NCBI RefSeq assembly: GCF_003722335.1
Contig: NZ_CP026100.1
Span: 3,880,001 to 3,944,000, forward strand
Source of the DNA: Caulobacter flavus
Lineage (GTDB): Bacteria > Pseudomonadota > Alphaproteobacteria > Caulobacterales > Caulobacteraceae
Reading direction: 5' to 3'
Length of the DNA: 64,000 nt
Position numbers and translations under genes: made by a program. Position 1 is the stretch's first letter, and the number at the start of each line of letters is the position of its first letter. The notes beneath the pieces were generated by a model. That model ran no database searches. It was not told the origin of the DNA and saw only the letters and a list, made by a program, of their open reading frames with translations. Shown one piece after another: positions 30,429 to 55,536 of the stretch.

Positions 30429-30869
30429 CTAGAACTGCGTGGTGTGTGGCGCGGGCCTGGCCTTGATGTCGACGACCAGCCGCAGCGGCTGGATCATCTT
30501 CGGCGGCGGCGCGGCGAGCGTGCGGCCGGAGACGATCGCCGACAGGTCTGCGTCGGCGGCCGCGTCGCCGAGTGGCGCGAAGTCGACCCGCGAGACCACC
30601 CCGTCGGGTGCGATCCACACCTTGAGCTCCAGGGCCACGCCCTGCTCGGCCGCGGCCGGCGCGGCGAGCAGATGGCCACGCAGGCGGACGGCGGGCGGCG
30701 TGTCCTCGTCCAGCCAGGCGGCGATGGCTTGGGCGGTCCGTTCGCCGTAGGCGATCCAGGCGGCCGGCGGCGGCGCGGTTCGCGGCTGGGCCTGGGCGTA
30801 GCCGCCCAGGCCCAGGGCCGCCGCCAGTCCCGCCGCGGCGGCGCGCCAGTAGGAGGCGGGCTTGGCCAT
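30429..30869 (-). CDS. Secreted protein with TonB C-terminal-like domain
   Basis: A 146-residue protein with a signal peptide (residues 1-28, cut after AQAQ). The rest has the TonB-CTD layout: an amphipathic helix (YGERTAQAIAAWLDED), a strand block VALELKVWIAPDGVVSRVDF, then a helix and the closing strand LRLVVDIKARP. It has no membrane anchor or proline linker, so it is a free periplasmic TonB-CTD-like domain rather than an energy transducer. It is the last gene of the operon, 12 bases after the Skp-like gene. It might bind the outer-membrane partner; this is inference. Confidence 0.7.
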   Translation of the reverse strand: MAKPASYWRAAAAGLAAALGLGGYAQAQPRTAPPPAAWIAYGERTAQAIAAWLDEDTPPAVRLRGHLLAAPAAAEQGVALELKVWIAPDGVVSRVDFAPLGDAAADADLSAIVSGRTLAAPPPKMIQPLRLVVDIKARPAPHTTQF

Positions 30870-30881
30870 GGCCGGGTCCGC

Positions 30882-31496
30882 CTAGCGAACGGCCGCGGCG
30901 GCGGGCGTCGGCGCGGGGCCCGCCTGCTGCGGCAGTCGCTCGCGGTCGAAGGTGATGGTCGACATCCGCTGGTCCAGCCCCTTGACCACGTCGGCGGTCA
31001 GGTCGTTGGCGAAGTTGCCGCCCAGGGCCGAGGCCCGATCGAGCAGCAGGCCGCACTTCCTGGCCGTGTAGGCCTGGGCGACGACCGGCTGGGCCTCGTT
31101 GGCGATGCGCTCCATGGCCTTGGCCCGGGTGGCGTCGATCTCGCGGCTGATCACGGCGGCCTTCTGCTGCAGCGGCAGCCAGCGGGCGTTGAGGGCCTCG
31201 GCCTTCTGGCGGCGGGCCGGGCCGTCGGGCTGGCCTTCCAGCACCCGCAGTTCGGCTTCGATCGGCGCGCGCTCGGCGTCGACCTCGGCCTGGGCCTTGC
31301 GGGCCAGCTCGGTCAGGCGCGCCGAGGCGGCCTTGCCGGCGGCGGCGTTGGCGAACACCGCCTCGCGCGACAGCAGGCAGACGCCGGGGATGGCCGGTCC
31401 GCCGAGCGGCTGGGAGGCCGGCTGCTGGGCGAAGGCCGGCGAGGTGAGCGAGACGGCGGCGAGAACGCCACCGGTGACGAGCAGACGGCAGATCAT
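30882..31496 (-). CDS. OmpH/Skp-like periplasmic chaperone
   Basis: A 204-residue protein with a signal peptide (cut near AFAQQ) and a long helical hairpin (ASARLTELARKAQAEVDAER, then EALNARWLPLQQKAAVISRE), as in Skp. Skp-like proteins hold unfolded outer-membrane or exported chains in the periplasm. It ends with a proline/alanine-rich tail. It is located five bases after SapC and downstream of the giant exoprotein gene, which suggests a dedicated chaperone for it or its transporter. Confidence 0.8.
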   Translation of the reverse strand: MICRLLVTGGVLAAVSLTSPAFAQQPASQPLGGPAIPGVCLLSREAVFANAAAGKAASARLTELARKAQAEVDAERAPIEAELRVLEGQPDGPARRQKAEALNARWLPLQQKAAVISREIDATRAKAMERIANEAQPVVAQAYTARKCGLLLDRASALGGNFANDLTADVVKGLDQRMSTITFDRERLPQQAGPAPTPAAAAVR

Positions 31497-31501
31497 GGAA
31501 C

Positions 31502-32287
31502 TCAGGCCTTCTTGGATTTGGTCGCGAGCTTCGCCGCGACTTCGCCCTGCAGGGTCAGCAGCGCGCCGAAGCGTTCGAGCGAGGCGAGGTGATAGTGAAC
31601 CAGCGCCAGCCAGCCCTTGCGGTGCCAGTCGAGTACGACGGCGTCGTCAAGGTTCGAAAACCGTTCCGTGTCGATCACCTTAAAGCCGTCGAGGCCCAGC
31701 TTGCGGCCGTCCGGCAGGGTGGCGTCGGCGCGGCGGTCGATCAGCAGGTCGTGCTCGCGCAGGGCTGCGGTGAAGGCCAGTGTGGCGTTGGCCTCGGCCT
31801 GGAAGGCGTTGCAGAAGGCCATCGCGTCGCGGGTCAGCGCCGACGGCTCGCCGTTCTCGAACAGGCTGGCGCCCTCCCCTCCCGACTGGGCCACGCGCTC
31901 GGAGGCCGCATCGATCGCTAGAGCGAAGCCCGACGGATTGACCGTGGCGATGAAGCCGAACGGATAGCGGCGAACATAGGCCGGCACGTAGGCGTCCTCG
32001 CGCCACTGACCGTCGGCGACGAACAGGTTGCGACGCTCCAGGCCCAGGACGGCCAGCGGCTGTGCGACCTCGCCGGCCGAGAACACGACCGGATAGCTGC
32101 GGGCCGCGGCGCTGAGCTCGGCGACGACGATCGGCGCGAACGGCGTGTCGGCGGCGAAGGCCACGTCGCCGTCCTTCAGCCGCCAGTCGGCATGGACGAG
32201 CGCGGAGAGCGGCTGCGGCTGCCGATAGAACAGCGGCGCCTCTAGCGTGGGTTGGGAAGCCGGGGCGACCGGGGAAGCGTCGGTCAT
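31502..32287 (-). CDS. SapC-family protein
   Basis: A 261-residue protein of the SapC family (named after a Campylobacter S-layer locus). Characteristic parts are ARSYPVVFSAGEVAQPLAVL, the YVRRYPFGFI block and CNAFQAEANATLAFTAAL. There is no signal peptide, so it is probably cytoplasmic. In proteobacteria SapC genes often neighbour TonB receptors or surface-protein genes, with no agreed function. Here it follows the exoprotein gene by 63 bases. A role in handling or regulating the exoprotein is a guess. Confidence 0.85.
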   Translation of the reverse strand: MTDASPVAPASQPTLEAPLFYRQPQPLSALVHADWRLKDGDVAFAADTPFAPIVVAELSAAARSYPVVFSAGEVAQPLAVLGLERRNLFVADGQWREDAYVPAYVRRYPFGFIATVNPSGFALAIDAASERVAQSGGEGASLFENGEPSALTRDAMAFCNAFQAEANATLAFTAALREHDLLIDRRADATLPDGRKLGLDGFKVIDTERFSNLDDAVVLDWHRKGWLALVHYHLASLERFGALLTLQGEVAAKLATKSKKA

Positions 32288-32350: not shown

Positions 32351-35300
32351 TTACTCGCCGAAGCCGAGGAAGCGGCCGGTGATGATGGCTGGGATGTCGC
32401 GCGGTTGCGGGCGGGCCCGCTCGGCGAGGCGCGAGGCCTCGGCGACCACGGCGTTGGCGGCCGAGGAAGCGGCGGTCAGCGCCCCGGTGTTGACGGCGGC
32501 GACCATCGGGATGCCGACGGCGTCGCCCTTCACCTGGATGTTGGCGGCGTTGACCACCTGCAGGGCGGCCAGGTTGACGTTGCCCGACACCCGGATGCCC
32601 GCCTCGCCGGCGTCGATCGTGCCCAGCGGCGCGATCAGGTCGACGTCGCCCGCCGGGATTTCCGGGATCGGCGCCAGGGTGGCGATGCCGGCCCCCGTGT
32701 TCATGGTCGGCGGCGAAAGGGTGACGTTGCCGTAGAGGTCGTAGACCCGGCGCGGCGGCTGGTAGACGGCCGTCGACTTGGAGCCTCGGCCGGCGTTGAT
32801 GTCGCCCTCCGCCGACCACATCAGCAGGTCGCCGCCGAAGGTGGTGAACACCCGGCTCTGGCCCAGCAGCACCGACTTCAGCGAGTAGAAGTCGATGTCG
32901 CCCGAACCCATCGACAGTACGCCCGCCGTGGCCGGCGGCTGGACGCCGCCGACGCCGACCAGCGTCTGGCCACCGGCGACCAACATCTCGACGTTGCCGC
33001 CGAACAGGGTGCGCACGGCCGAGCGGCCGAACATCGTGAAGTCGCCGGCATAGGCGTTTGCCTGGCCGTCGGCGCCCTTGGCCGGGAACAGCGCCTCGAT
33101 GGCGTTGCGGCCGCGCAGGTAGCTGCCGAAACGCGGTCCGACGGCGTCGTTGTACTCGCGCCCGCCAGCCTTCAGTTCGTCGAAATAGACGATGCGGGCG
33201 AAGACCTGGCGCTGCAGCGGATCCAGGGCGTCGTAGTAGCCGAGCGCCTCGGTCGCGTTGGCGGCCTTGTAGCCGAACCGGTCGTCGAGCCAGGCGATCA
33301 GTTCCTTGTCGTAGGTCTTCACCACCTTGCCCGGCTGATCGGCCAGGGGCCGGCCCGCCTCCGCCAGGTTGGCCGGATCGAGATAGAGCTTGGCGAAGGC
33401 GTCGTAGTTCAGCCCGTCGGACACGCCGGTCAGCATCGAGATCGACGCGCCGCCGTTGCGGGTGGCAGGCGAGATGTCGAACAGCGGGCCCACGCTGGTC
33501 AGGCGGCCCTTGTCGGCCTGGTAGATGTTGCGACCGGCCTCGACGACCAGATTGCCCGGGCCCGCGACGGTCATGTTGGCGTAGATGATGTCGCGACCGG
33601 CCGAGATCAGCGAGATGTCGGCCTTATCGTTGTGAACCACCAGGCCGGTCTGGCTGGCGGCCCCGAACAGATAGGCTTCGCCCGCGCATTCCAGGGCGGC
33701 CAGGCCCTGGCAGCCCAGGGCAGGACCCGTGCCGAGGTTCAGGATGTCGCGCGAGGCCCGCACGGCGACCGAACCCGACCCGACATAAAGCTGGTTGCCG
33801 CCGTTCTCGAAGGTGATGAAGCCGTAGCCCAGGTTACTGACGTCGCCGTCGGCGGCGTAGAACAGGGCCGGCTTCCTGTAGCCGTCGATCAGCGTGCCGG
33901 TGGCGTTGTCCTTCTGGAAGGCCAGCAGCGTGCCGAGGTTGGTGCTGTTGCCGTTCACTGGCAGCACGGGGTTCGGATTGGCCGTGGCGGTGCGCGCGTA
34001 GTCGCCCAGCCAGACCGGACGGAACGGGTTGGGCAGCAGGTCCAGCGAATTGGACATGCCCGACATGGCGATCGCCTGGCCGGCGGCGAAGAAGCCCTTG
34101 CTGTCGATGGCGCGATAGCCGCCGGCGAGGATGGACCTTCCGGCCAGGAACTCGACCCGGCCCAGTGGCGACGGGGCAAGTTCCAGAGGCGCGATCCCGA
34201 CCGAGCCGGGGCAGTTGTAGTCGCCGCACGCATCGGCGTTCCAGAAGATGTTCCCCTGCGCCGCGGTGACCCGCAGGATCGGCGGATACCAGTAGCGGCC
34301 ATCGCGAACCCCGGCGTTCTCCGAGGCGCTGTTGCCCTCGGCGGGGCGAACGATCGGCGTGACGTCGCCGCCGGCGCTGAACAGGCTGATGCTGGTGTCG
34401 TCGCTCCACAGCGAGAAGGACGAGCGCATGATCAGGCCGTCGGGCCGCACGTAGTCGCCGTTGGCGTCGACATAGCCGAGCGAGACGCCGGCGGCCGAGG
34501 TCCTGACCGAGCCCGGATCGCCGGCGGCGGCCAGGATCAGGTCGCCGCGGGCGTCGAGGCGCGCGTCGCCGTCGCCGATGATCACCGTGACGCCGCCGAA
34601 CGATTGCTGGAAGGGCGGCCGGGTCGCATCGAACAGGCGCGGGTCAAGGCTGTCGCGCCCGGCGACATAGACCGTGTTGCCCACGCCCGAGGCGAGCAGC
34701 GAGATGTCGCCTCGCAGGTTGGTCAGGCTGCCGCCGAGATCCGGGGTCATGCCCGAGCCGGCGCCGGCGTTGAGCGTGCCGCCCAGGCGGATGTCCATGT
34801 CGCCGCCGCCGGTCTGCACCACCGTGCCGGCGGTGACGATGCCGTCGGTGCGGACGACCGAGGTCACCCGGCCCGTGGCGGCCACCGCGAAGTTCAGGCC
34901 CGAGCTGGCGATGGTCCGGGCGGTGCTGTCGTTGAGCCCCTCCCCCGTAGTCCCCCAGTCCTGGTGGACGCCGGCGTCGCCGCCGGCGCGGACGGTCAGG
35001 TTGCCGCCGCCTAGGGTGCCGATGCCCATGAAGCCTTCGAGCAGCGGGGCGTTGAAGTTGAAGAAGTCGTTCAGGCTGCTCGCGTTGTTCGGGACATAGC
35101 CGCCGAAGTTGATCCACCAGGCCGAGGGGATGTCCTGGCCCATCTGCGCGGCCAGGCCTTCGCTGACGCCGTAGGCGCCCTGGCGCCACAGCCAGTTGCC
35201 GACGCTGCCGCTGCCCACGCGCTGGTAGGCGGCGTCGCGCGCGGTGCTGTAGCCGGTCAGGTCGCCCTGCACGGCCAGCAGCAGGTCACCGCCGTGCTCT

Positions 35301-38300
35301 GGGTACCAGGCCTGGTAGTCCTGGATCGAGGCGGCGTAGTCGTCGAAGTTCTGGCCGATCCAGGGATTGGCCAGGCCCGCCGAGCCGGCCAGGGTGGCGC
35401 GCGGCTGGTTGTAGACGTTATAGCCGTCGGGGGTCTGGCCGCCGATCTGCGCCGACTGCGTGCCGGCCGTGTAGACGCCGTACAGCGACAGCTGGGCGTA
35501 GTCGCCGCCCGCCAGCAGGTCGAGCGAGCCCGTGCCCGTGCGGATGACGCTGAAGTTCTGCATCAGCTTCAGGCCGTTCAGCCAGCCGGTGTTGAAACCG
35601 TCGTCGAGGGTCGCCTGCGGGTTCACGTAGTGGCGGTCCGACAGGGTCAGGTCGCCCGACTGACCGGCCTGGGCCAGATCGGTCGCCGCTCGCAGGGCGC
35701 GGCCGTCGGACGAGGCGATGTCGGCGCCCGCCACTAGGCGCATGGACCAGGACTGCGAGCCCGGCGCCAGCATCGGGGCCACGGCCCAGATGCGGCCCTG
35801 GGTCCCGTCGGCCTGGGTCGGACGGGTGGCGGTCGGGCCGCCCGCGCCGAGCAGTTGTAGGTTCACGCCGGTCGGGATCAGCGTCCCGGCGGCGACGGTG
35901 ACGTTGCTGTTCAACGATACGTCGGCCGTGAAGACGTTCATCGGCGTGCCCGCCGGAACGACCGTGGCCGCGATGCCCCGCGAAGAGCCCAGGGCGGTTG
36001 GCAGGACCGCGCCCGCCCCCCAGTAGGCGTTGGCGCGCACGAACTGGCCGTTGTTCATGACGTCGCCCTTGCGGTGGACAGGCGCGGCGCCGGCCTCGAA
36101 GGCCGCCTTGCTGGCCCAGATGTCCACCGGGATGGTCCAGGGGCCGTTGCGCGACAGCGTCAGCGCGGTCGTGACGAAGCCGAAGGGGATCAGGACGCCC
36201 GTGCGAACCGTGGTGAGGTTGCGCACCTCGATGTCGAAGTCGAGGACCACGGTGGAGTTCGGCCCGCCGGGGATCGTGGTGACCGAACCCGAGGCCCCGC
36301 CGATCAGCGTGTACTGCTGGTCAAGAACCACCGGTTCCGTCTGCAGGCCGGCCAGGCCCTTGATGATCAGGTTGGTGTTGCGGGGGATGACGTCGCCGAC
36401 CTGCAGCTGGGTGGTGCCCGACAGCGTCAGCTTGCCGGGCAGCTTGACGCCCTTGGGCCAGGTCATGGCCTTGAGGGTGACGGGCATCGGCAGCATGGCG
36501 CCCTGCCCCAACTGGGTGTCGGCCGGCAGGATCGTGCCAGCCTTGATGATCGACCCTTGCTCGAAGACCGTGCCGTCCGGCAGTCGGATGGCCGAGGTCG
36601 CCACCCAGTCCTGCGGCAGGGTGGCCGCGATCGACAGGTTCGAACCGGCCCCGATCAGGGTGTTGGAGTTGACGCGGAAGGCGTCGACCGGGGCGTCGAA
36701 GGTAAGGGTGACGCCCTTGTCGAACGAGGTTCCCTGCGCCAGGCGCACCGGCGCCGACAGCTGGTGGTCGGCCGGCCAGGCCATGACGCCGCCGTTCTCG
36801 GCGCTGCCGTACAGCACCCAGCCGTTGTCGTCGGGCGTGCGGGCCGGCTCGGCGAAGCCGTCGGTGATGCTGCCGTGGATGTCCAGGTCGTCGGCGGCGC
36901 GGATCAGCAGGACCCCCGCCTCGCCCGAGCCGTAGACGTCGGTCTGCTGGCTGCCGGCGTTGAGGCTGGCGTAGCGGTGGCCGGCCAGGTTCAGGTCGCC
37001 CGATACCGTCAGGCTACCGCCGGGGGCGCTGGCCAGTTCGACGCCGGGACGCAGGTGGAAGGCGTCCTTGTAGGCGCGCAGGCCGGCCATGCGCTCCAGA
37101 AGCGCCTGGTTGGCGATCGCCGCGTCGATGAAGGCCTTGCTGTCGCCGTGAACGTCGTCGAGCAGGTCCTGGTCGATGACGCCGTCGGCGACCTCGTACT
37201 TGCGGAAGCCGTTGACCGACAGGCTGTCGACTCCGCGGATCGTCAGGTCGCCGGACGCCTGGATGGCGATGTCGGCGCCACCCAGGCGCGGGGCGTTCAG
37301 TTCGACGCGGCCGCGGGCCACGCCGTCGGGCGACGACAGGTCCAGCGTCGCGCCTGAGGCCAGGGTCAGGGTCCCGCCGGCCGAGGTCAGCTCGATGGCG
37401 CCGCGGTTCGACGCATCGACCGGCGCGCCGTAGCTGTCGACGACCATCTTGTCGGCGCTGGCGTCCAGCTTGCCCGTCGAGGCGATCGTCAGGTCGTCGC
37501 GGGCCGACAGGCGGATCGAGCCCGGGCGGTGGCCGCTGGCGTCGATCGTGCCGACCACGGTCAGGTCGCCGCCGTCGGCGACGATCGTCACCTGGCGGGC
37601 CTTGACCTCGTCGCCGATCACCAGGTCGCCGGACTTGACGACGAAGCTGCGGCCGTCGGTGACCTTGGTCTCGTTGAGGCGCTCGTTCAGGCGGACGAAG
37701 TCGCTGATGACGTCGGCGCGGATGTCGATCGAGCCGTTGCGCAGCGAACCGTCTGAGGGCTTGCCGCCGTTGCGGGCCTCGCCGTCGATCTTGCCGTCGA
37801 GGGTCACGGCCCCTTCCAGCGCGGTGACCTTCAGCGAGCCGGCGTGGTTGTAGTCGGCGCTGAGGTCGATGGTCGAGCCGGCCGCCATCCGCACGTCGCC
37901 GTGGGCGCTCGCCAGATCGACGTCGCCACCCCAGCCGTAGCGGGTCTCGTCGAAGAAGTCGGCAGCCTTGCCAGACATGTCGATCCTGGCCTTGTCGCCC
38001 AGGACGATGTCGCCGTCGGTCGCGGTCAGCACGAGGCGGCCGCTGGGCAGGGCGATAGCGGTGTCGGCCGTGATCCGGCCGGCCGTCATCCTGACCTCGG
38101 CGCCCAGCTGCGGGGCGCTGGCGGCGGGCGCGCTCGCGCCGGCCGGGGCGGCCAGCACGATGGCCTCGCCGGCCTTGTAGTGCATCTTCGAGGCGGCCAG
38201 GCCGGTCAGCAGGGGCGTGGTGATGTTCAGCACGCCCCCCTGCCCCGGCTTACCGTACTCGGCCTGCGACTGGTATGCGGCCAGCTCGCCGACGTGGTTG

Positions 38301-45797: not shown

Positions 45798-46244
45798 TCA
45801 TGGCTGACCCGGACGTGTTGGGAGCGGCGGCCGGCTGGGCCGCTGCGGATGGACCGAGACGCCGAAGCTGGAGCCCAGCCGCTGGCGCGTCGCGGTCTGG
45901 CTGGCGACGCCGGTCCGGATGTCGGGCGACCTCGCGCCGACCACGGAGACGTCCAGCGGACCTCGGGCCTGGCTCTGGGCCAGGCGAGCGGCTTCCTGCA
46001 GCTGGGCGGCGGCGCATTCGACGTCGCCCGCGCGTTCGCCGGCGATGTCGACCTTGACGCAGACCGTCGCCGGCGGCGGGCCGCCGATACGATCCTGGCG
46101 CGCCCAGGCCGTGGCGGGCGTCGCCAGGGTCAGGAGCAGCAGCGAAAGAAGGCGGACGGGCCCGCCGGCCGTGCGGGCGCGCCGCTCCGTCCCCCGCCAG
46201 GGGGAGGAGCCGTGATCCGCGATGTCGGCGAAACCCGTCCCCAT
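45798..46244 (-). CDS. Small secreted protein of the TPS operon
   Basis: A 148-residue protein of unknown family. A long charged N-terminus precedes a hydrophobic export signal (LLSLLLLTLATPATAWA, about 32-48). The mature part has two cysteines (ATVCVKVDIAG and DVECAAAQL), which could form a disulfide, and a proline-rich end. It starts three bases after the porin-like gene and lies just before the exoprotein gene. No other start codon fits, so the unusual leader may be real or the true start may be a rare codon. Confidence 0.6.
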   Translation of the reverse strand: MGTGFADIADHGSSPWRGTERRARTAGGPVRLLSLLLLTLATPATAWARQDRIGGPPPATVCVKVDIAGERAGDVECAAAQLQEAARLAQSQARGPLDVSVVGARSPDIRTGVASQTATRQRLGSSFGVSVHPQRPSRPPLPTRPGQP

Positions 46245-46247: not shown

Positions 46248-47987
46248 TCAGAAGCGGGTCTGCAGGTCGATGAACAGCTTGTCGACCGACAGCGGCGCGT
46301 CGGCGATCTCTTCGCCCGACAGCCAGCGGAAGCCGATCGAGGTGCTCTTGCCGAAGGCGTAGGCGCCGCCGGCGGTCCAGCCCTTCGAGTTGGTCCCGCC
46401 CATGTGGAAGTCGCTGTCGGTAAAGCCGTCGACGACTGCGTCGGATTCCAGGTAGCGGTAGCCGAACTGCAGGTTCCAGTCGCCGCGGGCGATCAGGTCC
46501 AGCTTGCCGACGGTCAGCTTGGTCGCCCAGCCTTCCGAACCGCCTTCCCACGTCCCCGGGACCAGCAGCGTGCCATTGGTGTTGTTCGGGTCGGGGATCG
46601 TGCGCGTCGGGCCCAGGTTGTTGACCGCGAGGGCGCGCATGCGACCCTCCTTCAAGCCCAGGTTCTTGATGTACTCGCCGTCGAGGCGGACGCGCGAGCC
46701 GCCGCCCAGGGCCATCTCGGCGCTGCCGCGAACGTTGAGCACCTCGAAGTCCGAGACCAGGCCGAAGTACTGGTTCTCGGGGCTGCCGATGGGGTCGAGC
46801 GGGTTGGCCACGACATTGCGGATTGGGAACAGGGTGTTGCCGAACTGCTGGAACTGCGGGCGGGTCGGATCGGTGTCGCAGACCACTTCGTAGAACTGGC
46901 AGGGCTTGGAGACCTCGCCGCCGACGCCGTCGAAGTTGAAGTAGCCGGCCGCCAGGCGCACGCGCAGCTTTTCCGTCGCCTGCCACTCCAGGCCCAGCTG
47001 GCCTGCCAGCAGGTACTTGTCCTTGCTCTCGTACGGACCGCCCTGCCCTTCCGGCGCGTTGCGCGAGCCGAAGTCCAGGCTGGTGTTGAAGATCGGGAAG
47101 GCGCCGGCCGTGCCGAACACGGCGAAGCGGTCGCCGAGCTTCTGCTGTCCCGACACCGCGACGCCGTCGAAGTTCAGGTCGTCGTCGAACAGGATCTCGC
47201 TGGTCCAGAACGGATTGGCGAAACGGCCGACGTCGATGTTCAGGCCCTTTACCGGCGTCAGGCGCAGCGAGGCGCGGTCGAGCCAGATCTGGTACTTGCC
47301 GAACCCTTCGCTGCTCCCCAGCGTCTGGTTGGTCGAGATCGGCGAGGTATCGTTGCCGGTGGCCAGGCGCAGGTCTGCGCTGATCCAGTCATCGATCATG
47401 GCGTGCAGGCCCAGACGCGCCCGGATGCGGGCCCGCTGGCGGTTCTCGCGGGTGTTCAGGTAGGGCGGGCCGACATAGCCCGGGGTCTTGTCGTTGATGT
47501 TCTGCGGGTCGCCGGCGTTGATGGCGCCGAAGTCCTCGAAGATGTCGGCGTTGCCATCGTCCATGAAGACGCCTTCGCCGCGCACGCGCAGGTCTCCGTA
47601 CGGCGACAGGCGGCGGGTCCATTCGGGCGTCTCGCCGGGACGCGACCACCCTTCGGCCTGGGCCTGCTGGCCCAGTTCGGCGCGCAGTTCGGCCTTGATC
47701 TGGTCACGCACCACGGCCGGCACGTAGGCGATGGTCTGGACGCCGTCGGCGACGCCGGCGGGCGGGACCGGCGGCAGGGCCGGCTTGGCGGCCGGCTGGG
47801 CCACGGTGGCCTCGGCGATCAGGGCGTCGGCCTCGGCCTGGCTGACCAGGCCCTTGGCGACCATCAGCTGCAGCAGCTTGGTGGAGTCGACGCTCTGGGC
47901 CAGGGCCGGCGAGGCCAGCAGCGAGACGCCGGCCACGCAAGCGAGAAGGATCGGCTTCAAGCCGGTACGAACGGGGCGGTCGAACAT
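46248..47987 (-). CDS. Porin-like outer-membrane beta-barrel protein
   Basis: A 579-residue protein with a signal peptide (cut after ALAQS), a short helical region (LLQLMVAKGLVSQAEADAL and QIKAELRAELGQQ) that may form a periplasmic coiled coil, then alternating amphipathic strands to a terminal phenylalanine (DLQTRF). It resembles the family called putative porin in alphaproteobacteria. It sits between TonB/ExbBD and the exoprotein gene. It may be an accessory pore or surface anchor. I use the ATG at 47987; one at 48038 overlaps the tonB stop and would add 17 residues. Confidence 0.78.
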   Translation of the reverse strand: MFDRPVRTGLKPILLACVAGVSLLASPALAQSVDSTKLLQLMVAKGLVSQAEADALIAEATVAQPAAKPALPPVPPAGVADGVQTIAYVPAVVRDQIKAELRAELGQQAQAEGWSRPGETPEWTRRLSPYGDLRVRGEGVFMDDGNADIFEDFGAINAGDPQNINDKTPGYVGPPYLNTRENRQRARIRARLGLHAMIDDWISADLRLATGNDTSPISTNQTLGSSEGFGKYQIWLDRASLRLTPVKGLNIDVGRFANPFWTSEILFDDDLNFDGVAVSGQQKLGDRFAVFGTAGAFPIFNTSLDFGSRNAPEGQGGPYESKDKYLLAGQLGLEWQATEKLRVRLAAGYFNFDGVGGEVSKPCQFYEVVCDTDPTRPQFQQFGNTLFPIRNVVANPLDPIGSPENQYFGLVSDFEVLNVRGSAEMALGGGSRVRLDGEYIKNLGLKEGRMRALAVNNLGPTRTIPDPNNTNGTLLVPGTWEGGSEGWATKLTVGKLDLIARGDWNLQFGYRYLESDAVVDGFTDSDFHMGGTNSKGWTAGGAYAFGKSTSIGFRWLSGEEIADAPLSVDKLFIDLQTRF

Positions 47988-48040: not shown

Positions 48041-48739
48041 TCAGGCGCCCGACCGGCCGCTGATTTCGATGAGCATCACCGGCAGGCCCGCCGGCGGCGG
48101 GGTGCAGGCGTGGCCCGTCAGGACCTGCTCGAGGCGCGCGTTGCGCTTGGGATCGGTGCTCTCCAGGACCTGGACGCTGCTGACCTTGCCGTCGGGCGCC
48201 ATGGCGACCTTGAGCTGGGCCACGAAGCGGCCGCGGGTCAGCTCCCGGTCGGCCTGGGTCCGGCGGACCAGGCAGCTGGAGGTCGCCGCACCGTAGGCCG
48301 CGAAGCTGACCCCGCCGCCCGGCTTGCCGCCGATGCGGCCGCCGGAGCCGTCGCCGCGAGCCAGGCCGTAGTTGGCCGGACCTGCGCCTTCGCGCGCCGT
48401 CAGGGCGTTGTCGCCGACCGTCGGCTCGGAGGACTTGGCCTCCGGCGGCGGCGGGGTGTCCTGCGGCTGCTCCATCGGAACGGGCGTCGGAACGGGCTCG
48501 GGCGGCTTCTCCTGCACCACCGGTTTGGGCGGCGGCGGAGGTGGCGGCGGCGGCAGGATCACCTGGGTGGTGCGAACCTTGTTGGGACGGTCGGTGACGG
48601 TGACGCGGGTGGCCAGCATCCACATCGCCGCCAGGACCAGCACCACCCCGCCCGCCGCAAGCACGCGTCCGACGACCGGCGAGGACCGGCGGCGCGGGCC
48701 GTGAGGATCGTCCGGATCGCTCAGCAGGGCGGAGGCCAT
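48041..48739 (-). CDS. TonB energy transducer (TPS-operon copy 1)
   Basis: A 232-residue TonB-like protein: cytoplasmic N-terminus, one membrane helix (about 24-44), a proline-rich periplasmic linker (62-100 with a run of nine prolines), and a compact C-terminal domain (about 148-228, FVAQLKVAMAPDGKVSSVQV) with two cysteines (156 and 212) that could bond. Its ATG overlaps the exbD stop, so ExbB, ExbD and this TonB are made as one motor set. The C-terminal domain should touch an outer-membrane partner; the neighbours suggest the transporter or the porin-like barrel. Confidence 0.85.
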   Translation of the reverse strand: MASALLSDPDDPHGPRRRSSPVVGRVLAAGGVVLVLAAMWMLATRVTVTDRPNKVRTTQVILPPPPPPPPPKPVVQEKPPEPVPTPVPMEQPQDTPPPPEAKSSEPTVGDNALTAREGAGPANYGLARGDGSGGRIGGKPGGGVSFAAYGAATSSCLVRRTQADRELTRGRFVAQLKVAMAPDGKVSSVQVLESTDPKRNARLEQVLTGHACTPPPAGLPVMLIEISGRSGA

Positions 48740-49152
48740 TACTCGCCTCCGCCGGGCGGCCGGGTCGAGGCCATGCCCAGAGACGGCACGCCCACCTTCG
48801 AGCACAGGTCGAGAACCTGCATGACCCGGTCGTACTGGACGGTGCGGTCGCCGCGCAGGACGATCGCCAGGTCAGGCGTGGTGGCGACGCTGGACCGCAG
48901 TTCCGCCTCCAGTTCGGCCAGCGACACCGGCACCGCGTCGATCGACAGCGTGCCGTCGTTGCTGACCGCGATGACCCGCGACTTGGGCTCGTTGAGCGTC
49001 TGGGCCGAGGAGGCCGACGGAAGGTCGACCTTGATCCCCTGCACGGCCGCGGTCGTCAGCAGGATGAAGATGATCAGCAGCACGAAGGTCAGGTCGACCA
49101 GCGGGGTGATGTTGATCTCGTTGTAGGGTTGTCTCTTGCCCTGGATCTGCAT
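48739..49152 (-). CDS. ExbD-type proton-channel subunit
   Basis: A 137-residue ExbD/TolR protein with one membrane helix (LVDLTFVLLIIFILLTTAAV). The proton-carrying aspartate is Asp20. The periplasmic part (SRVIAVSNDGTLSIDAVPV, ending in GGGE) is standard. It begins 14 bases after the exbB fusion gene and its stop overlaps tonB. It forms the motor with ExbB and uses proton-motive force. Confidence 0.92.
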   Translation of the reverse strand: MQIQGKRQPYNEINITPLVDLTFVLLIIFILLTTAAVQGIKVDLPSASSAQTLNEPKSRVIAVSNDGTLSIDAVPVSLAELEAELRSSVATTPDLAIVLRGDRTVQYDRVMQVLDLCSKVGVPSLGMASTRPPGGGE

Positions 49153-49166
49153 GGCTGGGCGCTCCC

Positions 49167-50903
49167 CTACTCTGCCGCGATGGCGGCGGCGGGAACGTCC
49201 TGCCAGGTCTCGGCGATGCGCTTTTCCAGCTCGTCGACGAAGATCTGGTTGTCCGTGGAGACGTCGTCCACACGGCTCAGCAGGTAATTGTACCCGAACA
49301 GCGAGGGGATCGCGACGGCGAGGCCCGCGACGGTGGCCAGCAGGGCGGCGGCGATGCCTGGGGCGATAGCGTTGATGTTCACCTCGCCGGCGGCGGCCAC
49401 CATGGCGAAGGTGATCATGACGCCCAGGACCGTGCCGAGCAGGCCGATGAACGGACCGCCCGAGATGGCGATGGTCAGCAGCACCATGCTGGCGTTGAGC
49501 TTGCGGCCTTCGCGGATCTGGCCGGCGTCGAGGGCCGAGCGGATGGCGGCGATCGACTGGGCGGTGACGGCGAAACGCGAGCCCGTGGCGTAGTTTTCCT
49601 TCAGGCGTACTTCCAGCTCGCGGCGGCCGATCAGGTAGAGGCGGGCCAGCGAGGAGTCCTGGACGTCGGCGCCGAGCTTGAGGGCCGGCAGGCCGTCATG
49701 GTCGCCGCGAGCGCCACGGGCGTAGGCGTCGAGGAAGGACTCGTTGGCGCGCTTGACCCGGCCCAGCAGCAGGCTCTTGGAGATCATCACGCCAATGGCC
49801 ACGGCGAGCATGACGGCCAGGACGCCGATGACGATCCAGGCGTCGACGGTCAGGGCCTTGAACAGGATGCCGAAGTAGTTGTGGCCGCCGCCCGACTTGG
49901 CTTCCTCGGCCGTGTCGGTGGAGACCAGGCGCGCGCCCTGCCCTTCGCTGGCCGCGGCCAGCTGGAACGCCGACTGCGGCAGCGCCGCGCCGGCGACGCG
50001 GAACTCGTCGATCTCGCCGGCGAAGCCCTGGCCCAGCAGCGCCGGACCCGAGGCCGCGCCCAGGGCGCCGGAGACTTCACCCGCCGGCTGGCCGCCGACA
50101 TAGAGGCGCGAGACCTGGCCGTCGTTGACCAGGGCGACGTGCGCCCAGGTCCCGGTCGGCAGCGCCGCGCCGGCCGAGCGGGCGCCGCCCGCCTCGACGA
50201 ACAGCTTGCCGTCCTGGCTGACCAGCGTCACCGCGCCGGGCAGCGAGAACAGCTGGCCGTCGGCCGACGGCTTGACCCAGAAGCTGACCGACAGCGGACC
50301 GCCGCCGAAGGCCTGGGCCGGCGCCTGCACCGGCGCGGCGCCGTCCAGCACCAGGCTGGAGCCGATCAGGCCGCCGGCGTTGCGGGCCTCGCCGCCCTGT
50401 CCGCTCAGTTCGTTGCCGGTGGCGTCGGTCGGAGCGCCGGCGTTGTCGAAGTGCCAGACCAGCTTGTATTCCGGCGCGTAGGTGCCGGCGCGGTCCTGGC
50501 CGGCGGCGGCCTTGTCGTTGCCGTAGTAGGCGTAGACCGTCGCGGGCTGGCCCGGCTGCAGGTTCTGGACGTCGACCCAGAGCAGCGCCTGCTGCTCCTG
50601 CACGTCCCAGCGCTCGAGGTGGAACTTCAGCGGCGTGCGGTCGTCGCCGGCCACGAAGCGCAGGTCCGAGCCATCGGGCTTGGCGTCGGCGAAGTTGAAA
50701 TTGCCCGAGTGCAGGCGCACCAGAACCGGGGCGCGGGCCACCTCGCCGGTCACGCCGGCGGCGGCCGTGTTGAGATTGATCCGGGTGCGGTACGAGTACT
50801 CCGGCTGCCACCAGGCCAGGGCCGGGGTCGCCGCCGCGGTCGTCGCCAGGACGGCCATCACGCCGCCGACGACGCACTTCCTAAAGCGCGTACGCATAGT
50901 CAT
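49167..50903 (-). CDS. ExbB with N-terminal periplasmic DUF2341 and LamG-like module
   Basis: A 578-residue fusion, more than twice a normal ExbB. Residues 1-30 are a signal peptide; about 55-135 are a DUF2341 domain (VARAPVLVRLHSGNFNFADA; TVYAYYGND); about 145-308 are a concanavalin/LamG-like jelly roll (YKLVWHFDNAGAPTDATGNE; GEIDEFRVAG). The ExbB part follows, with membrane helices at about 354-375, 476-503 and 513-541 and GGPFIGLLGTVLGVMITF. The first module must be periplasmic and may bind a glycan or the adhesin. The ATG at 50903 overlaps the transporter stop. Confidence 0.92.
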   Translation of the reverse strand: MTMRTRFRKCVVGGVMAVLATTAAATPALAWWQPEYSYRTRINLNTAAAGVTGEVARAPVLVRLHSGNFNFADAKPDGSDLRFVAGDDRTPLKFHLERWDVQEQQALLWVDVQNLQPGQPATVYAYYGNDKAAAGQDRAGTYAPEYKLVWHFDNAGAPTDATGNELSGQGGEARNAGGLIGSSLVLDGAAPVQAPAQAFGGGPLSVSFWVKPSADGQLFSLPGAVTLVSQDGKLFVEAGGARSAGAALPTGTWAHVALVNDGQVSRLYVGGQPAGEVSGALGAASGPALLGQGFAGEIDEFRVAGAALPQSAFQLAAASEGQGARLVSTDTAEEAKSGGGHNYFGILFKALTVDAWIVIGVLAVMLAVAIGVMISKSLLLGRVKRANESFLDAYARGARGDHDGLPALKLGADVQDSSLARLYLIGRRELEVRLKENYATGSRFAVTAQSIAAIRSALDAGQIREGRKLNASMVLLTIAISGGPFIGLLGTVLGVMITFAMVAAAGEVNINAIAPGIAAALLATVAGLAVAIPSLFGYNYLLSRVDDVSTDNQIFVDELEKRIAETWQDVPAAAIAAE

Positions 50904-52501
50904 CAGAATTCCCCCCAGATGCGGAAGCTTGTGGTGAACGGGCCGACACGGCGGCCCGGCATGGAGATCAGGGGCGTGCCGACATCGACCGTCCCGTTGA
51001 GGTGCTTGAAGAGGCGGGCGTTGACGCCGACGCCGATGCTGCTGAGGCCCTGGTTGTCGTTCTGGCCAGGCAGGCGGTCGTGGATCCAGGCGTAGCCGGC
51101 GTCGACGAAGCCGTGGATGCGCAGTTCGTCGACGGCCGACCAGTCTGTCAGCAGCTTGGGCGAGCGCAGCTCCAGCTGGAACGCCAGGCCGTAGTCGCCC
51201 ATCGCCTCGCTCTCGCGGTAGACGCGGACCGAGTTGACCCCGCCGAGCGAGAACTGCTCGTTGGCGATCAGCGGACGGTCGGTCCACTGGACGGCAAGCC
51301 GGCCGGAGGCGATGAAGTCCTTGGGCAGCTCCCGCTCGTAGGAGCCGTCGAACTTGACCACGAAGAAGCTGGGCCGGGCGTTGTAGCGCTTGGCGTCGAA
51401 CGCATCGCGGTCGTCGCCCAGGCCGCGCACGCCGAACACGCCGGTCAAGGTCGCGTCGGCCCGGCGGTCGTCGCCCATCCAGTCGCCGCGCCAGGCGGCC
51501 ATCACCGGGAAGTACTCGATCGGGGCGGCGGCGCGATCCGAGCCGAGGATCACGTCTTCCTTGAAGTGCTTCCAGTCGAAGCCCGCGGTCAGCGAGTGGT
51601 AGAAGCCGTCCTTGCCGCCCAGCGCCTGGATCAGCCGCAGGCCGACCACGTCGCCCTTGCCGATCACATTGGTGCCGCCGATGACGGCGATGTCGCTGTC
51701 GGAGTGCATGGCCGAGGCCAGCAGCTGCGTGCCGGTGCGCAGGCGCGCCATGTAGTTCGCCGAGAAGACGGTGCCGTCCTCGGTGCGGTCGGGCGCGGTC
51801 TGGGCCGATAGGGCGAGGCTGTCGCCCCGGCCCCAGAGATTGTCGTGACGCAGAGACAGCGCCGAGCGCAGCTTGCTGGTAGAGGCGCTGTAGTAGTTGT
51901 TGAGCTCCAGTGAGCCGTGCCAGGCCGAGGTCTCCTCGACCGTCAGGGCGACGTCCAGCGTGCCCGGCGCGGCGCCGGCCTTAAGCTCGGGCGTGACCTT
52001 GCGGGTCGGGTTCTGGTTCATCGCCACGACGTCGCGCTGGAACGCCGGCAGGCTTGGCGTCAGCCCCTCGGCCAGCGACGGCGCCTGGGCGCGCACCGTT
52101 TCGGGCTTCTTGGCCCCGGTAACGATCACCTGGCCGATCTTCTGCTCTAGCACCTCCAGCTGGAGGATCCCGGTCTCGACCGACTGCTCGGGGATGTAGA
52201 CCGCCACGGCGATGTAGCCGCGATCCTCGTAGACCTTCTGGAGGGCCGCGCGCGCCGCCTCGATGTCGTCGGCGGTGCGGCCCGGGCCCATGAAGGGATA
52301 GACGGCGCGTTCGACCGTGTCGGCGTCGAGGACGGTGTTGCCCTTGACCTGGAAGGCCCGCACCTCGAAGCGCGCCGGCGCCTGCGCCGCCTCGGGAGGC
52401 GTTTCCTGCGCCGCGGCATGGCCCGCGACGGCCAGAGCGGCGGCCGCGACGTGCGCCGCCGTTACGCCTCCGGCAAGGCGTCTTGCTTTTTGATCCAGCA
52501 T
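50903..52501 (-). CDS. Two-partner-secretion transporter (ShlB/FhaC/HecB family)
   Basis: A 532-residue outer-membrane channel that exports the TPS exoprotein. A signal peptide comes first, then two POTRA domains (about 45-125, FEVRAFQVKGNTVLDADTV, and 125-200) and a 16-strand-type barrel ending in phenylalanine (RIWGEF). The loop-6 signature, usually VRGYRE in the Omp85/TpsB superfamily, reads VRVYRE near residue 425. Unlike typical tpsB genes it is followed directly by exbB, exbD and tonB. A 138-base gap to fecR may hold a promoter. Confidence 0.93.
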   Translation of the reverse strand: MLDQKARRLAGGVTAAHVAAAALAVAGHAAAQETPPEAAQAPARFEVRAFQVKGNTVLDADTVERAVYPFMGPGRTADDIEAARAALQKVYEDRGYIAVAVYIPEQSVETGILQLEVLEQKIGQVIVTGAKKPETVRAQAPSLAEGLTPSLPAFQRDVVAMNQNPTRKVTPELKAGAAPGTLDVALTVEETSAWHGSLELNNYYSASTSKLRSALSLRHDNLWGRGDSLALSAQTAPDRTEDGTVFSANYMARLRTGTQLLASAMHSDSDIAVIGGTNVIGKGDVVGLRLIQALGGKDGFYHSLTAGFDWKHFKEDVILGSDRAAAPIEYFPVMAAWRGDWMGDDRRADATLTGVFGVRGLGDDRDAFDAKRYNARPSFFVVKFDGSYERELPKDFIASGRLAVQWTDRPLIANEQFSLGGVNSVRVYRESEAMGDYGLAFQLELRSPKLLTDWSAVDELRIHGFVDAGYAWIHDRLPGQNDNQGLSSIGVGVNARLFKHLNGTVDVGTPLISMPGRRVGPFTTSFRIWGEF

Positions 52502-52639: not shown

Positions 52640-53623
52640 TCAGGCGACCAGGACGACGCCTCCGGGCAGCGCGGTGGCGCTGACGCCATAGGCCAGCCGC
52701 AGCTGGTCCACGACCTGGTCGATGCGGTTGGTCTGGAAGGTGCCGTTGACCCGCCGCTCGCGCAGGCTGGCGCTGGCGATGACGATCCGGCCCTCGCGGT
52801 AGCGGTTGATCTCCTCGATCACGTCGCCCAGCCGCTCGTCGCGGAACACCAGTATGCCGCGACGCCAGGCGCCTTCCGCGATCGGATCGATCGGCGCCGG
52901 GGCCGCCAGGCTGGCCTGGTCGTAGGTGACGCTGTAGCGCCCGGGCAGGTCGACGATCCGGCCGGCCGAGCGGACGCGGGCCGCACCCTCCAGGCACGAC
53001 ACCCTCACCTCGCCGTCCAGGCAGCGCATCGACAGGCGCGCGCGGCTGGTCGTCGTCTCGCCGTCGCCGGCGAAGATCGACACCGCGGCGTCGTGGTCGA
53101 TCGAGACCAGAGCCTCGCCGGCCAGCAGTTCGAAGGCCCTAGGCCCGACGTCTTCGCGCCGGGCGATCCGCGTCAGGGTGTTAAGTTCGGCTGAGACGCC
53201 CGGGGCCAGCTGGACCATGCGGGTTTCGCCCTTGGCGGTTTCGAAGTCCGCGGCGCGGCCGGCGGGCGCCATGGCCGCGCGGCCGAGCAGGACGGCGCCC
53301 CCGGCGACCGAGGCGGCGAGCGCCCCGCCGACCAGGAAGCGACGGCGGCTTTGCGCGACCGGCTCGGGCCGGGCCAGCGCCGTCGTCTCCCGCGCCCGCA
53401 GTTCACCTGCGGCCTGACGGGCCAGGCCGTGCAGCCGGGCGGCGTCGCGGAAGGCGGCCTCGTGGCGTTCGTCCGCCCCGCGCCAGGCCGACAGCGCGCG
53501 GCCGTCCGCCTGCGTCGCCTGTCCCGACAGCAGCAAACTCACCCATGCCTGGGCCTGACCAGCGACGTCGTCGCTCACATCCCGCTCCCGCCAGCCCTTC
53601 TGGAATCCCTCACTACGGATCAT
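52640..53623 (-). CDS. FecR-type anti-sigma/signal transducer (TPS operon)
   Basis: A 327-residue inner-membrane regulator. The N-terminal cytoplasmic part (AQAWVSLLLSGQATQADGRAL) matches FecR anti-sigma domains, an RRRFLVGGALAASVAGGAVLL segment crosses the membrane, and the periplasmic FecR domain is followed by an STN-like end (AWRRGILVFRDERLGDVIEE). It should bind the FecI-type sigma factor whose gene overlaps it by ATGA. In the classic system an outer-membrane receptor signals to FecR; no such receptor is in this operon. Confidence 0.9.
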   Translation of the reverse strand: MIRSEGFQKGWRERDVSDDVAGQAQAWVSLLLSGQATQADGRALSAWRGADERHEAAFRDAARLHGLARQAAGELRARETTALARPEPVAQSRRRFLVGGALAASVAGGAVLLGRAAMAPAGRAADFETAKGETRMVQLAPGVSAELNTLTRIARREDVGPRAFELLAGEALVSIDHDAAVSIFAGDGETTTSRARLSMRCLDGEVRVSCLEGAARVRSAGRIVDLPGRYSVTYDQASLAAPAPIDPIAEGAWRRGILVFRDERLGDVIEEINRYREGRIVIASASLRERRVNGTFQTNRIDQVVDQLRLAYGVSATALPGGVVLVA

Positions 53624-54165
53624 GACGCTTCAGGACCGGGTTGGCGCAAGAATACGACCTTGGGCTGGTTCAAAATTCGCTGCAGCTCTTCTGTCGCCAG
53701 CTTCAGCTCGTGTTGCACGGTGCGTTGCGCGATCCCCTGGCGCGCGGCGATCTCGGTGGTCGAGCGTCCGTCCAGCCAGGCGGCGGTGCAGATCGCCAGG
53801 CGCCTGGCCGACATGCCGGCCATCGCCTCCCTGACCCGGGCCAGGTCCGAGCGGGCCTCGGCGATCGTCTCGGGATCGGGGGTCTCGTCGGGCACCTCCA
53901 GCAGGGCCGAGACCTCGTCGAAGGTCAGCAGCCGCCGGTCGCGCCGCCGGGCGTTGGCGGCGATGTTCAGCGCCATGCGATAGAGATAGGCCGTCGGGTG
54001 GCGCACTTCCTCGGCCGGCCCGCCGCTGGACAGCTTGACGTAGGCGTCCTGCAGCGCGTCGCGGGCCTGCTCACGCGAGCCCAGCCGCGCGCTGACGCCG
54101 GCCAGCAGCGTCTCGTACTTTTCGACCAGATGCCCTCTCAGGCGCAGCGCCGCGTCGGTGACCAT
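53620..54165 (-). CDS. FecI-type ECF sigma factor (TPS operon)
   Basis: A 181-residue ECF sigma factor. Region 2 is GSREQARDALQDAYVKLSS, with HPTAYLYRMALNIAANARRR following. Region 4 is GRSTTEIAARQGIAQRTVQHEL. It has normal length. Its stop overlaps the fecR start. It is 18 bases after tonB copy 2, so sigma factor, TonB and STN protein are one unit. The likely target is its own operon, including the exoprotein; this is inference. Confidence 0.92.
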   Translation of the reverse strand: MVTDAALRLRGHLVEKYETLLAGVSARLGSREQARDALQDAYVKLSSGGPAEEVRHPTAYLYRMALNIAANARRRDRRLLTFDEVSALLEVPDETPDPETIAEARSDLARVREAMAGMSARRLAICTAAWLDGRSTTEIAARQGIAQRTVQHELKLATEELQRILNQPKVVFLRQPGPEAS

Positions 54166-54183
54166 GCCGTGTCCAGACGCCGA

Positions 54184-54810
54184 TCAGCCGGCTGCGCGGG
54201 CGGCGGCCGCGTAGCGCAGCGGCACCACCAGGTCGATGGAGCCTGGCAGGGTGGCTGGCAGCACCGGCAGCGGCTCGGCCGCGCGCAGCGTCTTCATGGC
54301 GGCGTTGTCGAGCATGACGACGCCGGAGCTGGTTTCGATCCAGGCGTCCAGCACGCGGCCATCGCGCTGAACGATCAGGGCGACCCTGACCATGCCGTTG
54401 GGCCTCGCGCCCGCGCCGGTGGCGGGATAGCGGTGGAAGCGGGCCAGATGGTTCTCGAGTTCGCGGTAGTAGCTGGACAGCGCGCCAGGGTCAGCCGCGG
54501 CGGCCGCCTGCATCGACGATGCGGCGCCGGTCGGCGGGGCGTCGGCGGCGGAGTACGGCCCCACCGCCTCGGGCGTCAGGGTCTTGGCCAGGTCGGTCAC
54601 GCTGGGAGCCGCTAGCGGCTGGGCCGTCGCCGTCGTCTGGGCCGCGCCCTTCTGCGGCGGCGCGTCGACCAGCTCGACCGAGATCGTGCCGACGTCGCCG
54701 TGCTCGACCAGTTGGCCGGGACGCGCGTTCAGGGTGACGAGGAACGCCGCGGCCACGCCGCCATGCAGCAGCGCCGATGCGGCCGTACCGAGAAGCCAGT
54801 TCCGCCCCAT
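54184..54810 (-). CDS. TonB energy transducer (TPS-operon copy 2)
   Basis: A 208-residue TonB-like protein. The N-terminal membrane helix (LLGTAASALLHGGVAAAFLV) is followed by a fairly short linker that is not especially proline-rich, and then a typical TonB-CTD (about 112-200: LSSYYRELENHLARFHRYP; GMVRVALIVQRDGRVLDAWI). It is the second full TonB of the operon and sits beside the sigma/anti-sigma pair, so it may serve signalling, while copy 1 serves the motor. This division is a guess. Confidence 0.88.
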   Translation of the reverse strand: MGRNWLLGTAASALLHGGVAAAFLVTLNARPGQLVEHGDVGTISVELVDAPPQKGAAQTTATAQPLAAPSVTDLAKTLTPEAVGPYSAADAPPTGAASSMQAAAAADPGALSSYYRELENHLARFHRYPATGAGARPNGMVRVALIVQRDGRVLDAWIETSSGVVMLDNAAMKTLRAAEPLPVLPATLPGSIDLVVPLRYAAAARAAG

Positions 54811-54879
54811 GGAAACTCAGACCACCTGTTACTCAACAGGCGCCTCAACTAAGGCGCGCAAGCGACAGAACGGTGACGG

Positions 54880-55536
54880 TCAGCGCTGCTGACGGACCTG
54901 GAATTCCATCCGCATCGGTTGCGGCAGGTTCGGCGGCGGAGCGGGAAACAGCATCGCCCCGGCGGTGGCGAGGAACACCTGGTCCCGCTCGACCTGGCCA
55001 GAACCCGTAATGATTTCGACGCGTTGCGTCTGGCCGCCCTCGGCCACCCAGACACGTGCGGACAGCATGTAGTCGCCGCTGGCGAGGATCTTTTCCCCCC
55101 GTAGTCCCTCGACGATCCGGCGACGCACGACGTCGGCATAGCTGCGCGCGGCCGGGTCGTCGCGCACGCCGCCGATCACCGGCGCGGCCACCGCGGTGAT
55201 CGGATTGAGCGTGACCGTCGAGCCGGAGTTGGCGTAGACCACTACCGCCCCGCCCTGGGTGAAGCGCGCGCTGAGCCCGGAGCCGGCCAGCAGCAGCACA
55301 AGGGCCTCGCGCGGCCGCATCTCGCCCGCCACCGCCGACGACCGCTTTCCCGCCGCCAGACCGCTGTCGTAGAGCATGGGCAGGCCGGTTGCGGCCGAGA
55401 ACGCGCTCAGCGCCTGGTCCAAAGGCTGGGCCGCGATGTCGAAGCGTCGCGACGCTGCTTCGGCCGCCTGGACGGACGTGACGACCACGCAGGCGCTCAA
55501 GGCGCCGATCATTCCGCTCAGTCGACGTCCACGCAC
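54880..55536 (-). CDS. Secreted STN domain plus TonB-C-like domain, no barrel
   Basis: A 218-residue exported protein. The signal peptide (1-28) is followed by an STN domain (about 30-105, FDIAAQPLDQALSAFSAATG and GLSARFTQGGAVVVY), then a linker and a TonB-CTD-like domain (about 130-215, YADVVRRRIVEGLRG; YMLSARVWVAEGGQTQRVEI). STN domains normally sit at the front of TonB-dependent receptors and signal to FecR. Here the signalling domain is a separate periplasmic protein. I use the GTG at 55536 because it supplies the basic start of the signal peptide; an ATG at 55512 is the alternative. It is the first gene of the fourteen. Confidence 0.8.
   Translation of the reverse strand: MRGRRLSGMIGALSACVVVTSVQAAEAASRRFDIAAQPLDQALSAFSAATGLPMLYDSGLAAGKRSSAVAGEMRPREALVLLLAGSGLSARFTQGGAVVVYANSGSTVTLNPITAVAAPVIGGVRDDPAARSYADVVRRRIVEGLRGEKILASGDYMLSARVWVAEGGQTQRVEIITGSGQVERDQVFLATAGAMLFPAPPPNLPQPMRMEFQVRQQR

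Follow-up and report, generated by a model that had tools for sequence, protein, structure and literature searches.

In the window analyzed here, a 64,000-nucleotide stretch of the Caulobacter flavus genome (NZ_CP026100.1, positions 3,880,001 to 3,944,000), genes on the minus strand between positions 55536 and 30429 encode a two-partner secretion (TPS) pair, TpsA and TpsB, together with an ExbB-ExbD-TonB proton motor and a signalling set made of a VreA-like protein with an STN domain, an extracytoplasmic function (ECF) sigma factor and a FecR-like anti-sigma factor. The locus is of the PUMA3/Pdt type described in Pseudomonas aeruginosa and belongs to the DUF3739 class of TPS. At the level of sequence, the motor and the giant exoprotein TpsA are linked across genomes, the exoprotein carries a conserved peptide near its end, an STN domain is fused beyond this peptide in a few relatives, and three proteins of the locus share one form of TonB-type domain. 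Taken together, the evidence points to the exoprotein tail, rather than TpsB, as the client of the motor.

To examine the linkage, profiles of DUF3739 and of the DUF2341-ExbB fusion that serves as motor subunit were searched in 398 Pseudomonadota genomes; scoring was limited per genome to the best 3 candidates with the motor profile and to 11 at most with DUF3739, such that single misses are possible. As a result, the fusion was detected in 14 out of 398 genomes and DUF3739 in the same 14, with none discordant. These genomes span 12 genera and 8 families, and the chance of such a coincidence would be about 4e-26 under an assumption of independent genomes that does not in fact hold. Among 61 close relatives, the full-length fusion and DUF3739 are likewise present in the same 4, and DUF3739 was found in 38 of the 39 motor-bearing genomes searched (40 of 80 named loci were submitted, with the genome of L105 not covered), the exception being G475, the Chthoniobacter flavus metagenome-assembled genome (MAG) of locus L085. 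The co-occurrence of motor and exoprotein across genomes, on which a sequence-only reading of the window had staked its proposal, is thus found, supporting that the motor and the DUF3739 exoprotein belong together.

At the 80 named loci, where the core of the gene order is present, genes for ExbD (78), TonB (74), the porin (71), TpsA (53) and TpsB (42) lie within the stored flank; for the 50 loci with flanks longer than 9.5 kb, the corresponding numbers are 50, 50, 49, 38 and 31. Locus L067, with a long flank, has neither TpsA nor TpsB, and DUF3739 is encoded elsewhere in its genome. A single motor gene is accompanied by 17 exoproteins in G485, a Bradyrhizobiaceae MAG containing L115, and by three in each of G432, G259, G483 and G470. 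Two consecutive exbD genes precede tonB in several betaproteobacterial loci (L054, L055, L057-L059, L061, L070, L073, L076 and others), and relatives of TpsB with about 40% identity are carried by the Klebsiella plasmids NZ_CP065459.1 and NZ_CP084804.1.

Mere co-regulation of unrelated envelope genes is a highly improbable explanation of this linkage. The P. aeruginosa regulon does include an unrelated type II secretion system (PMC2729926), but the linkage holds in 14 of 14 genomes from 8 families, and motor loci also occur outside Pseudomonadota, on Verrucomicrobiota-named contigs and in an Anaeromyxobacter MAG (L068, L078, L080, L085, L087, L113, L116 and L118). The linkage also bears on the idea of the sequence-only reading that the motor powers or gates exoprotein export through TpsB, as could happen if TonB acted on its POTRA domains. 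This idea fits the one-base overlap of tpsB and exbB in the window and their neighbourhood in many relatives, and Ton-dependent protein secretion has a precedent (PMC6434023). Nevertheless, a general TPS domain is present in 137 of the 398 genomes, including all 14, and in the remaining 123 neither the motor fusion nor DUF3739 was detected. Moreover, the start of POTRA1, found by pattern in 26 of 42 TpsB chains, ranges from residue 39 to residue 137, and nothing conserved was seen before POTRA1 in 8 chains that would mark a TpsB N-terminal peptide as the client of TonB. As this idea also leaves the conserved peptide of the exoprotein tail unexplained, we regard it as quite unlikely.

The tail peptide was recognized in a set derived from 135 DUF3739 hits, 134 of which end in a stop codon (L160, a cut duplicate stretch, was dropped). 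An E-value filter, which removed, among others, pieces of a disrupted exoprotein gene in L075/L186, left 129 tails, of which 118 are non-redundant. In all 118 tails, a ten-residue motif with a consensus of about [IV]I[TI]VEVLG[FY]G is located on a flexible linker, 34-53 residues beyond the DUF3739 match. An unsupervised motif search with one site per tail gave 26.2 bits, compared to 6.9-7.3 bits in shuffled tails. With a matrix built from these same sites, site scores have a median of 25.8 and a minimum of 8.0 (L080), the window site scores 21.6, and the 99th percentile of the background is -1.5. In the window, where the tail occupies 32354-32506 and the motif 32386-32357, the motif ends one residue before the stop, whereas in many other exoproteins a variable tail follows it. 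All 17 exoproteins of G485 carry VIIVEVLGYG, and the motif is also present in exoproteins encoded away from the contig of the motor (L150, L156 and most of those of G485). In contrast, a matrix scan of 20 ordinary TPS tails, hand-picked as 10 shorter and 10 longer ones (18 complete and 2 cut by contig ends), revealed no motif, the best score of 3.2 (L274) being above the background 99th percentile and below every exoprotein site. In the AlphaFold model of the last 300 TpsA residues, a confident beta-helix extends to about residue 245, after which the predicted local distance difference test (pLDDT) score is about 50, as expected for a flexible segment. Bradyrhizobium-, Burkholderia- and Pseudomonas-like exoproteins (L105, L142, L143, L147, L167 and most of L197-L216) share a second short conserved sequence (about V-x-V-L-G-x-G, then LT..E), which is found close to the C terminus and some 30-50 residues past the motif.

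In 4 of the 129 tails, an STN domain is fused beyond the motif. One G002 exoprotein carries it after the motif in one open frame, with a Pfam score of 33.9 bits against a cut-off of 28.4 (one fusion was scanned), and a separate STN gene is absent from its locus, L038. For loci L049 and L056, which also lack an STN gene, a fusion was predicted before the tails were fetched and was then found in both (L221 and L227, from G456 and G463). The fourth fusion is in G452 (L228), the contig of which ends just before tpsB. FecI hits were obtained in 24 loci, 16 with and 8 without a separate open frame for STN; three of these 8 are the fusion loci, with 2.6, 6.2 and 2.5 kb visible upstream of fecI, and in L083 the 219 bases upstream of fecI are too few to judge. 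Since it is in the periplasm that transducer STN domains act on FecR, tails fused to STN should reach this compartment. The fusions beyond the motif thus argue strongly that the exoprotein tail is probably periplasmic.

The TonB-type domains of the locus point in the same direction. The C-terminal domain of VreA matches the family of the motor TonB (TonB 2) with 99.5% probability (E 1.2e-22), and the two are less like the other TonB of the locus, TonB 1 (E 9.2e-7 and 3e-9). The family of the last gene (30869-30429) matches the motor TonB family with 99.0% and VreA with 98.0% probability. Judging from these profile comparisons, TonB 2, VreA and the free protein encoded by the last gene share one special form of TonB-type domain, to which TonB 1 is less similar, and the simplest reading is one shared ligand. 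Since the fusion loci have the STN domain on the tail, show no adaptor gene and keep the motif, this ligand is suggested to be the tail. A TonB-box-like stretch between the STN and TonB-type domains was seemingly present, by inspection, in most of 13 aligned VreA chains, though not in L081, L091 and L099.

The motor subunits carry the threonines and the Asp expected of a Ton motor. Both channel threonines of ExbB are invariant in 8 aligned copies, and their patterns, with E. coli T148/T181 as reference, occur in 77 and 75 of 80 chains. The transmembrane Asp of ExbD was matched by pattern in 56 of 78 chains, the other 22 being uninspected. At the ExbB position that we equate with the essential Glu176 (E176) of E. 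coli ExbB, 74 of the 75 matched fusion chains have Ala and one has Ser, with the threonines kept.

Based on these results, we propose that the TpsA tail stays periplasmic, that the TonB-type domains of the locus bind it and that the motor acts on it, a reading to which we give about an even chance. TpsB would export the giant TpsA and leave the C-terminal tail, a linker with a beta-strand-like peptide, in the periplasm. There the peptide would be gripped by TonB 2 on the proton motor, by VreA as an adaptor to FecR and by the free TonB-type protein. The motor might then pull, hold or release the tail of the surface-anchored exoprotein, while the STN domain would relay the tail's state to FecR and hence to the ECF sigma factor that would drive the locus. 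In the fusion loci, the motif presumably remains for the motor, with the STN domain carried covalently by the tail. Signalling via the tail is the better-supported half of this proposal, whereas peptide binding by the TonB-type domains and force or mechanical work on the tail are what we infer from it. More tentatively, and with rather less confidence, the exoprotein itself may be the surface receptor, with force or secretion state at the surface switching the ECF sigma factor through the TonB-gripped, STN-read tail.

Several observations weigh against the proposal. In P. aeruginosa, deletion of vreA left sigma-VreI-dependent promoters at wild-type level in low phosphate, the inducing signal being described as unknown, and a strain without vreA was as virulent as the wild type (PMC4971064, PMC7035377), as were mutants of the tonB homologue and PA0696 (PMC2729926). 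Loci L074, L094, L114 and L118 have FecI and neither a separate STN gene nor an STN domain on those exoprotein tails that were seen from their genomes. The FecR frame is short in the first three of them (187, 87 and 87 residues), and perhaps, as a guess, STN signalling has been lost there or these FecR variants no longer need STN input. In addition, the four STN fusions may stem from one event.

The peptide also differs from known TonB boxes. When TonB boxes from 20 of the 108 receptors of the window's own genome were scored with the tail matrix, the best reached 1.3 and 18 of the 20 fell below -5. The tail peptide was therefore rejected as a standard TonB box, and it is called strand-like only. 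This dissimilarity suits a different explanation, in which TpsB or a protease reads the peptide for sorting, processing or plugging, and linkage of the motor reflects no more than a surface structure served by both; C-terminal anchors are reported to lock other TPS proteins in TpsB (PMC5422565). Such a signal would leave both the three TonB-type domains of the special form and the STN fusions unexplained, and we find it hardly likely.

The Porin_5 barrel, which is as constant as the motor, may equally be a TonB client. Full-length Porin_5 was found in the same 14 of the 398 genomes, and 49 of the 50 loci with full flanks have the gene no more than 6 kb downstream of exbB. The motor might accordingly energize this barrel to import something captured by the exoprotein, as HxuC does with haem released through HxuA, and the tail would be otherwise employed. 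In the N-terminal part of the porin, a sequence with a V-x-Y-V-P core recurs (pattern matched in 43 of 71), phosphate starvation induces the P. aeruginosa locus (PMC4971064), and a PhoD phosphatase gene adjoins the window locus. However, the Pfam match spans the barrel as a porin, with no plug domain for TonB to move, G259 and G432 have three exoproteins for one motor gene and one barrel, and neither the tail motif nor the STN fusions are explained. Import through the barrel is therefore considered unlikely. Partial Porin_5 matches were seen in five more genomes of one family (G295, G343, G366, G399 and G411), without motor or DUF3739, and perhaps represent a distant barrel family.

In the window, the order and minus-strand direction of the fourteen genes given by the sequence-only reading were confirmed, as was a largest intergenic gap of 138 bases with the starts used here (successive gaps in 5' to 3' gene order: 69, 18, -4, 138, -1, 14, -4, 53, 3, 109, 63, 5 and 12 bases). 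The families it had named were upheld by Pfam, or by family profile comparison for TonB 2 and the last gene. The run begins with the VreA-like periplasmic protein (54880-55536), which has a signal peptide, an STN domain (residues 55-102; Pfam 39.4 bits, cut-off 28.4), a flexible linker and the TonB-type C-terminal domain (about residues 125-215). Its AlphaFold model (mean pLDDT 83; predicted template modelling score, pTM, 0.48) has two folded domains, and the best Foldseek matches are the signalling domains of PupR-PupB, FpvA and FecA, followed more weakly by TolA/TonB domains. It is followed by TonB-like protein 1 with an ordinary TonB_C domain (54184-54810; TonB_2/TonB_C above cut-offs), the FecI/VreI-like ECF sigma factor (53620-54165; Sigma70_r2 and Sigma70_ECF above cut-offs) and the FecR/VreR-like anti-sigma factor (52640-53623; FecR, DUF4880 and FecR_C above cut-offs). 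The outer-membrane transporter TpsB (50903-52501) consists of POTRA domains and a barrel (POTRA_2 60.9 bits, ShlB 78.8 bits).

The ExbB motor subunit (49167-50903) carries at its N terminus a presumably periplasmic DUF2341 and Laminin_G_3 part (Pfam matches at 50675-50442 and 50342-49974), followed by MotA_ExbB (49568-49254). ExbD (48739-49152; 104.9 bits) precedes TonB 2, the motor's own TonB with the special C-terminal domain (48742-48041). As a single sequence, TonB 2 has no Pfam match, but a profile of its family gives weak matches (E 5e-5 to 0.06) to the PDB entries of HasB, TonB and TolA, and the equivalent protein of G189 scores above the Pfam TonB_2 cut-off. Next come the Porin_5 outer-membrane barrel (46248-47987; 569.9 bits) and a small secreted protein (45798-46244) of no known family and with no Pfam match, relatives of which occupy the equivalent position in Sphingobium-type loci. 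TpsA, the giant exoprotein of 4445 residues (32351-45688), has a TPS domain at about 45289-44489 (74.6 bits) and DUF3739 at 32836-32507 (138.9 bits). The last three genes encode a SapC-family protein (31502-32287; 210.5 bits), a Skp/OmpH-like periplasmic chaperone (30882-31496; OmpH 59.3 bits) and the free TonB-type domain protein (30429-30869), which has a signal peptide by inspection, no visible membrane anchor and no Pfam match. Genes of the SapC family are also found close to the motor in two Lysobacter loci and in one G002 locus (L036).

Most of the gene order was found in 7 further loci of 4 genomes, with identities of 28-80% depending on the protein, and the arrangement in the window is thus not a chance one. 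The sequence-only reading had taken it for a single operon. Co-direction and small gaps stand, but the run continues upstream, signalling genes are divergent from secretion genes in 5 of the 22 loci with both FecR and TpsB, and three promoters serve the equivalent genes in P. aeruginosa (PMC4971064), so that a single operon is not established. The PhoD phosphatase gene (55629-57167, minus strand) ends 92 bases ahead of the STN gene and is preceded on the same strand by an STN-type TonB receptor (57203-59716). Together with an ECF sigma factor (60774-61466), they form a second signalling set (55629-61466, minus strand), in which a 316-residue frame at the position expected for FecR has no Pfam match. 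A scan for a pho-box-like pattern (up to 3 mismatches to the consensus) gave 3 matches where 1.75 would be expected, with none immediately ahead of the STN gene, and lends no support to a pho box. The window lies within a one-contig genome of 5.66 Mb, in which another, diverged copy of this locus occurs near 4.14 Mb.

The sequence-only reading knew of no description of such a machine, and in this it was wrong (PMC2729926, PMC7035377, PMC4971064). Llamas et al. (2009) described PUMA3 as VreA (with an STN and a TolA/TonB-like domain), VreI and VreR, which regulates genes for TpsA, TpsB, ExbB2, ExbD2 and PA0696, and reported that TPS, ExbBD and PA0696 homologues accompany PUMA3 in other species, including P. 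fluorescens (PMC2729926). Later papers name pdtA, pdtB and tonB4 and call exbB2-exbD2-tonB4 "still uncharacterized" (PMC7035377); phdA, pdtB, exbB2D2, tonB4 and PA0696-0701 are reported to be under one promoter that needs sigma-VreI and PhoB (PMC7035377, PMC4971064). For the P. aeruginosa counterpart, experiments have shown that an ECF sigma factor of the system itself controls the TPS and motor genes, as the sequence-only reading had envisaged (PMC4971064, PMC7035377).

The window locus shares with PUMA3/Pdt a VreA with an STN and a TolA/TonB-type domain, an adjoining ECF sigma factor and FecR, TpsA, TpsB, ExbB, ExbD, TonB and a PA0696-like porin. It differs in being one-stranded with small gaps, in having the additional TonB 1, SapC, Skp and free TonB-type proteins, with Skp as chaperone where the Pdt locus has PpiC, and in having no hxc type II secretion genes among its fourteen. 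G189, standing in for PAO1, encodes a Phd+DUF772 protein, TpsB, DUF2341-ExbB, ExbD, TonB, Porin_5, a 209-residue protein, PpiC and LysR, which equals the published PA0691-PA0701 order as far as identified; the end of its exoprotein, encoded on a different contig, contains both DUF3739 and the tail motif. While the type is known, neither the obligate motor nor the tail motif and STN fusions were found in the literature searched, which excludes subscription papers such as Faure et al. 2014 on PdtA. In the same literature, the term DUF3739 was not found, no DUF2341 paper concerns TPS by its title, and the PUMA3 paper alone was relevant to "two-partner secretion" and "TonB box" together. A paper on the Ton system of SYK-6 deals with something other than this type of locus. 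The exoproteins with their tail peptide offer a candidate partner both for VreA, which is described as a P. aeruginosa protein of unknown role, and for exbB2-exbD2-tonB4 (PMC7035377). Together, the obligate motor, the tail motif and the STN fusions make a long-standing puzzle accessible to specific experiments.

With a TPS domain in the exoprotein and a POTRA/ShlB transporter (Pfam), the locus is a two-partner (type Vb) secretion system. Among known systems of this kind, it resembles the haemopexin system HxuCBA, which has a surface-kept TPS exoprotein linked to Ton, and the C terminus of HxuA is expected to remain periplasmic, like that of HMW1 (PMC5422565). HxuCBA differs in being a three-gene operon without motor or ECF/FecR genes and in having a TonB-dependent transporter as the client. 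FecIRA-type transducers share the STN domain, FecR and FecI, whereas the window cascade has no plugged barrel: VreA has no barrel in either Pfam or the model, and is thus not a TonB-dependent transducer with plug and barrel joined to STN. The tail seems to replace the transducer, with STN as a separate adaptor or fused. Oar/PopC of Myxococcus xanthus likewise uses a Ton motor in protein secretion (PMC6434023), with a TonB-dependent transporter instead of TpsB and a protease as substrate. According to a review of type V secretion, translocation is powered neither by a hydrolysable energy source nor by a gradient (PMC5422565). Because the giant exoproteins were found only with a proton motor in the genomes examined and their peptide is probably on the motor side, this statement becomes directly testable, and the locus type, if the exoprotein is indeed the surface receptor, would represent a motor-coupled, force-sensing branch of type Vb secretion.

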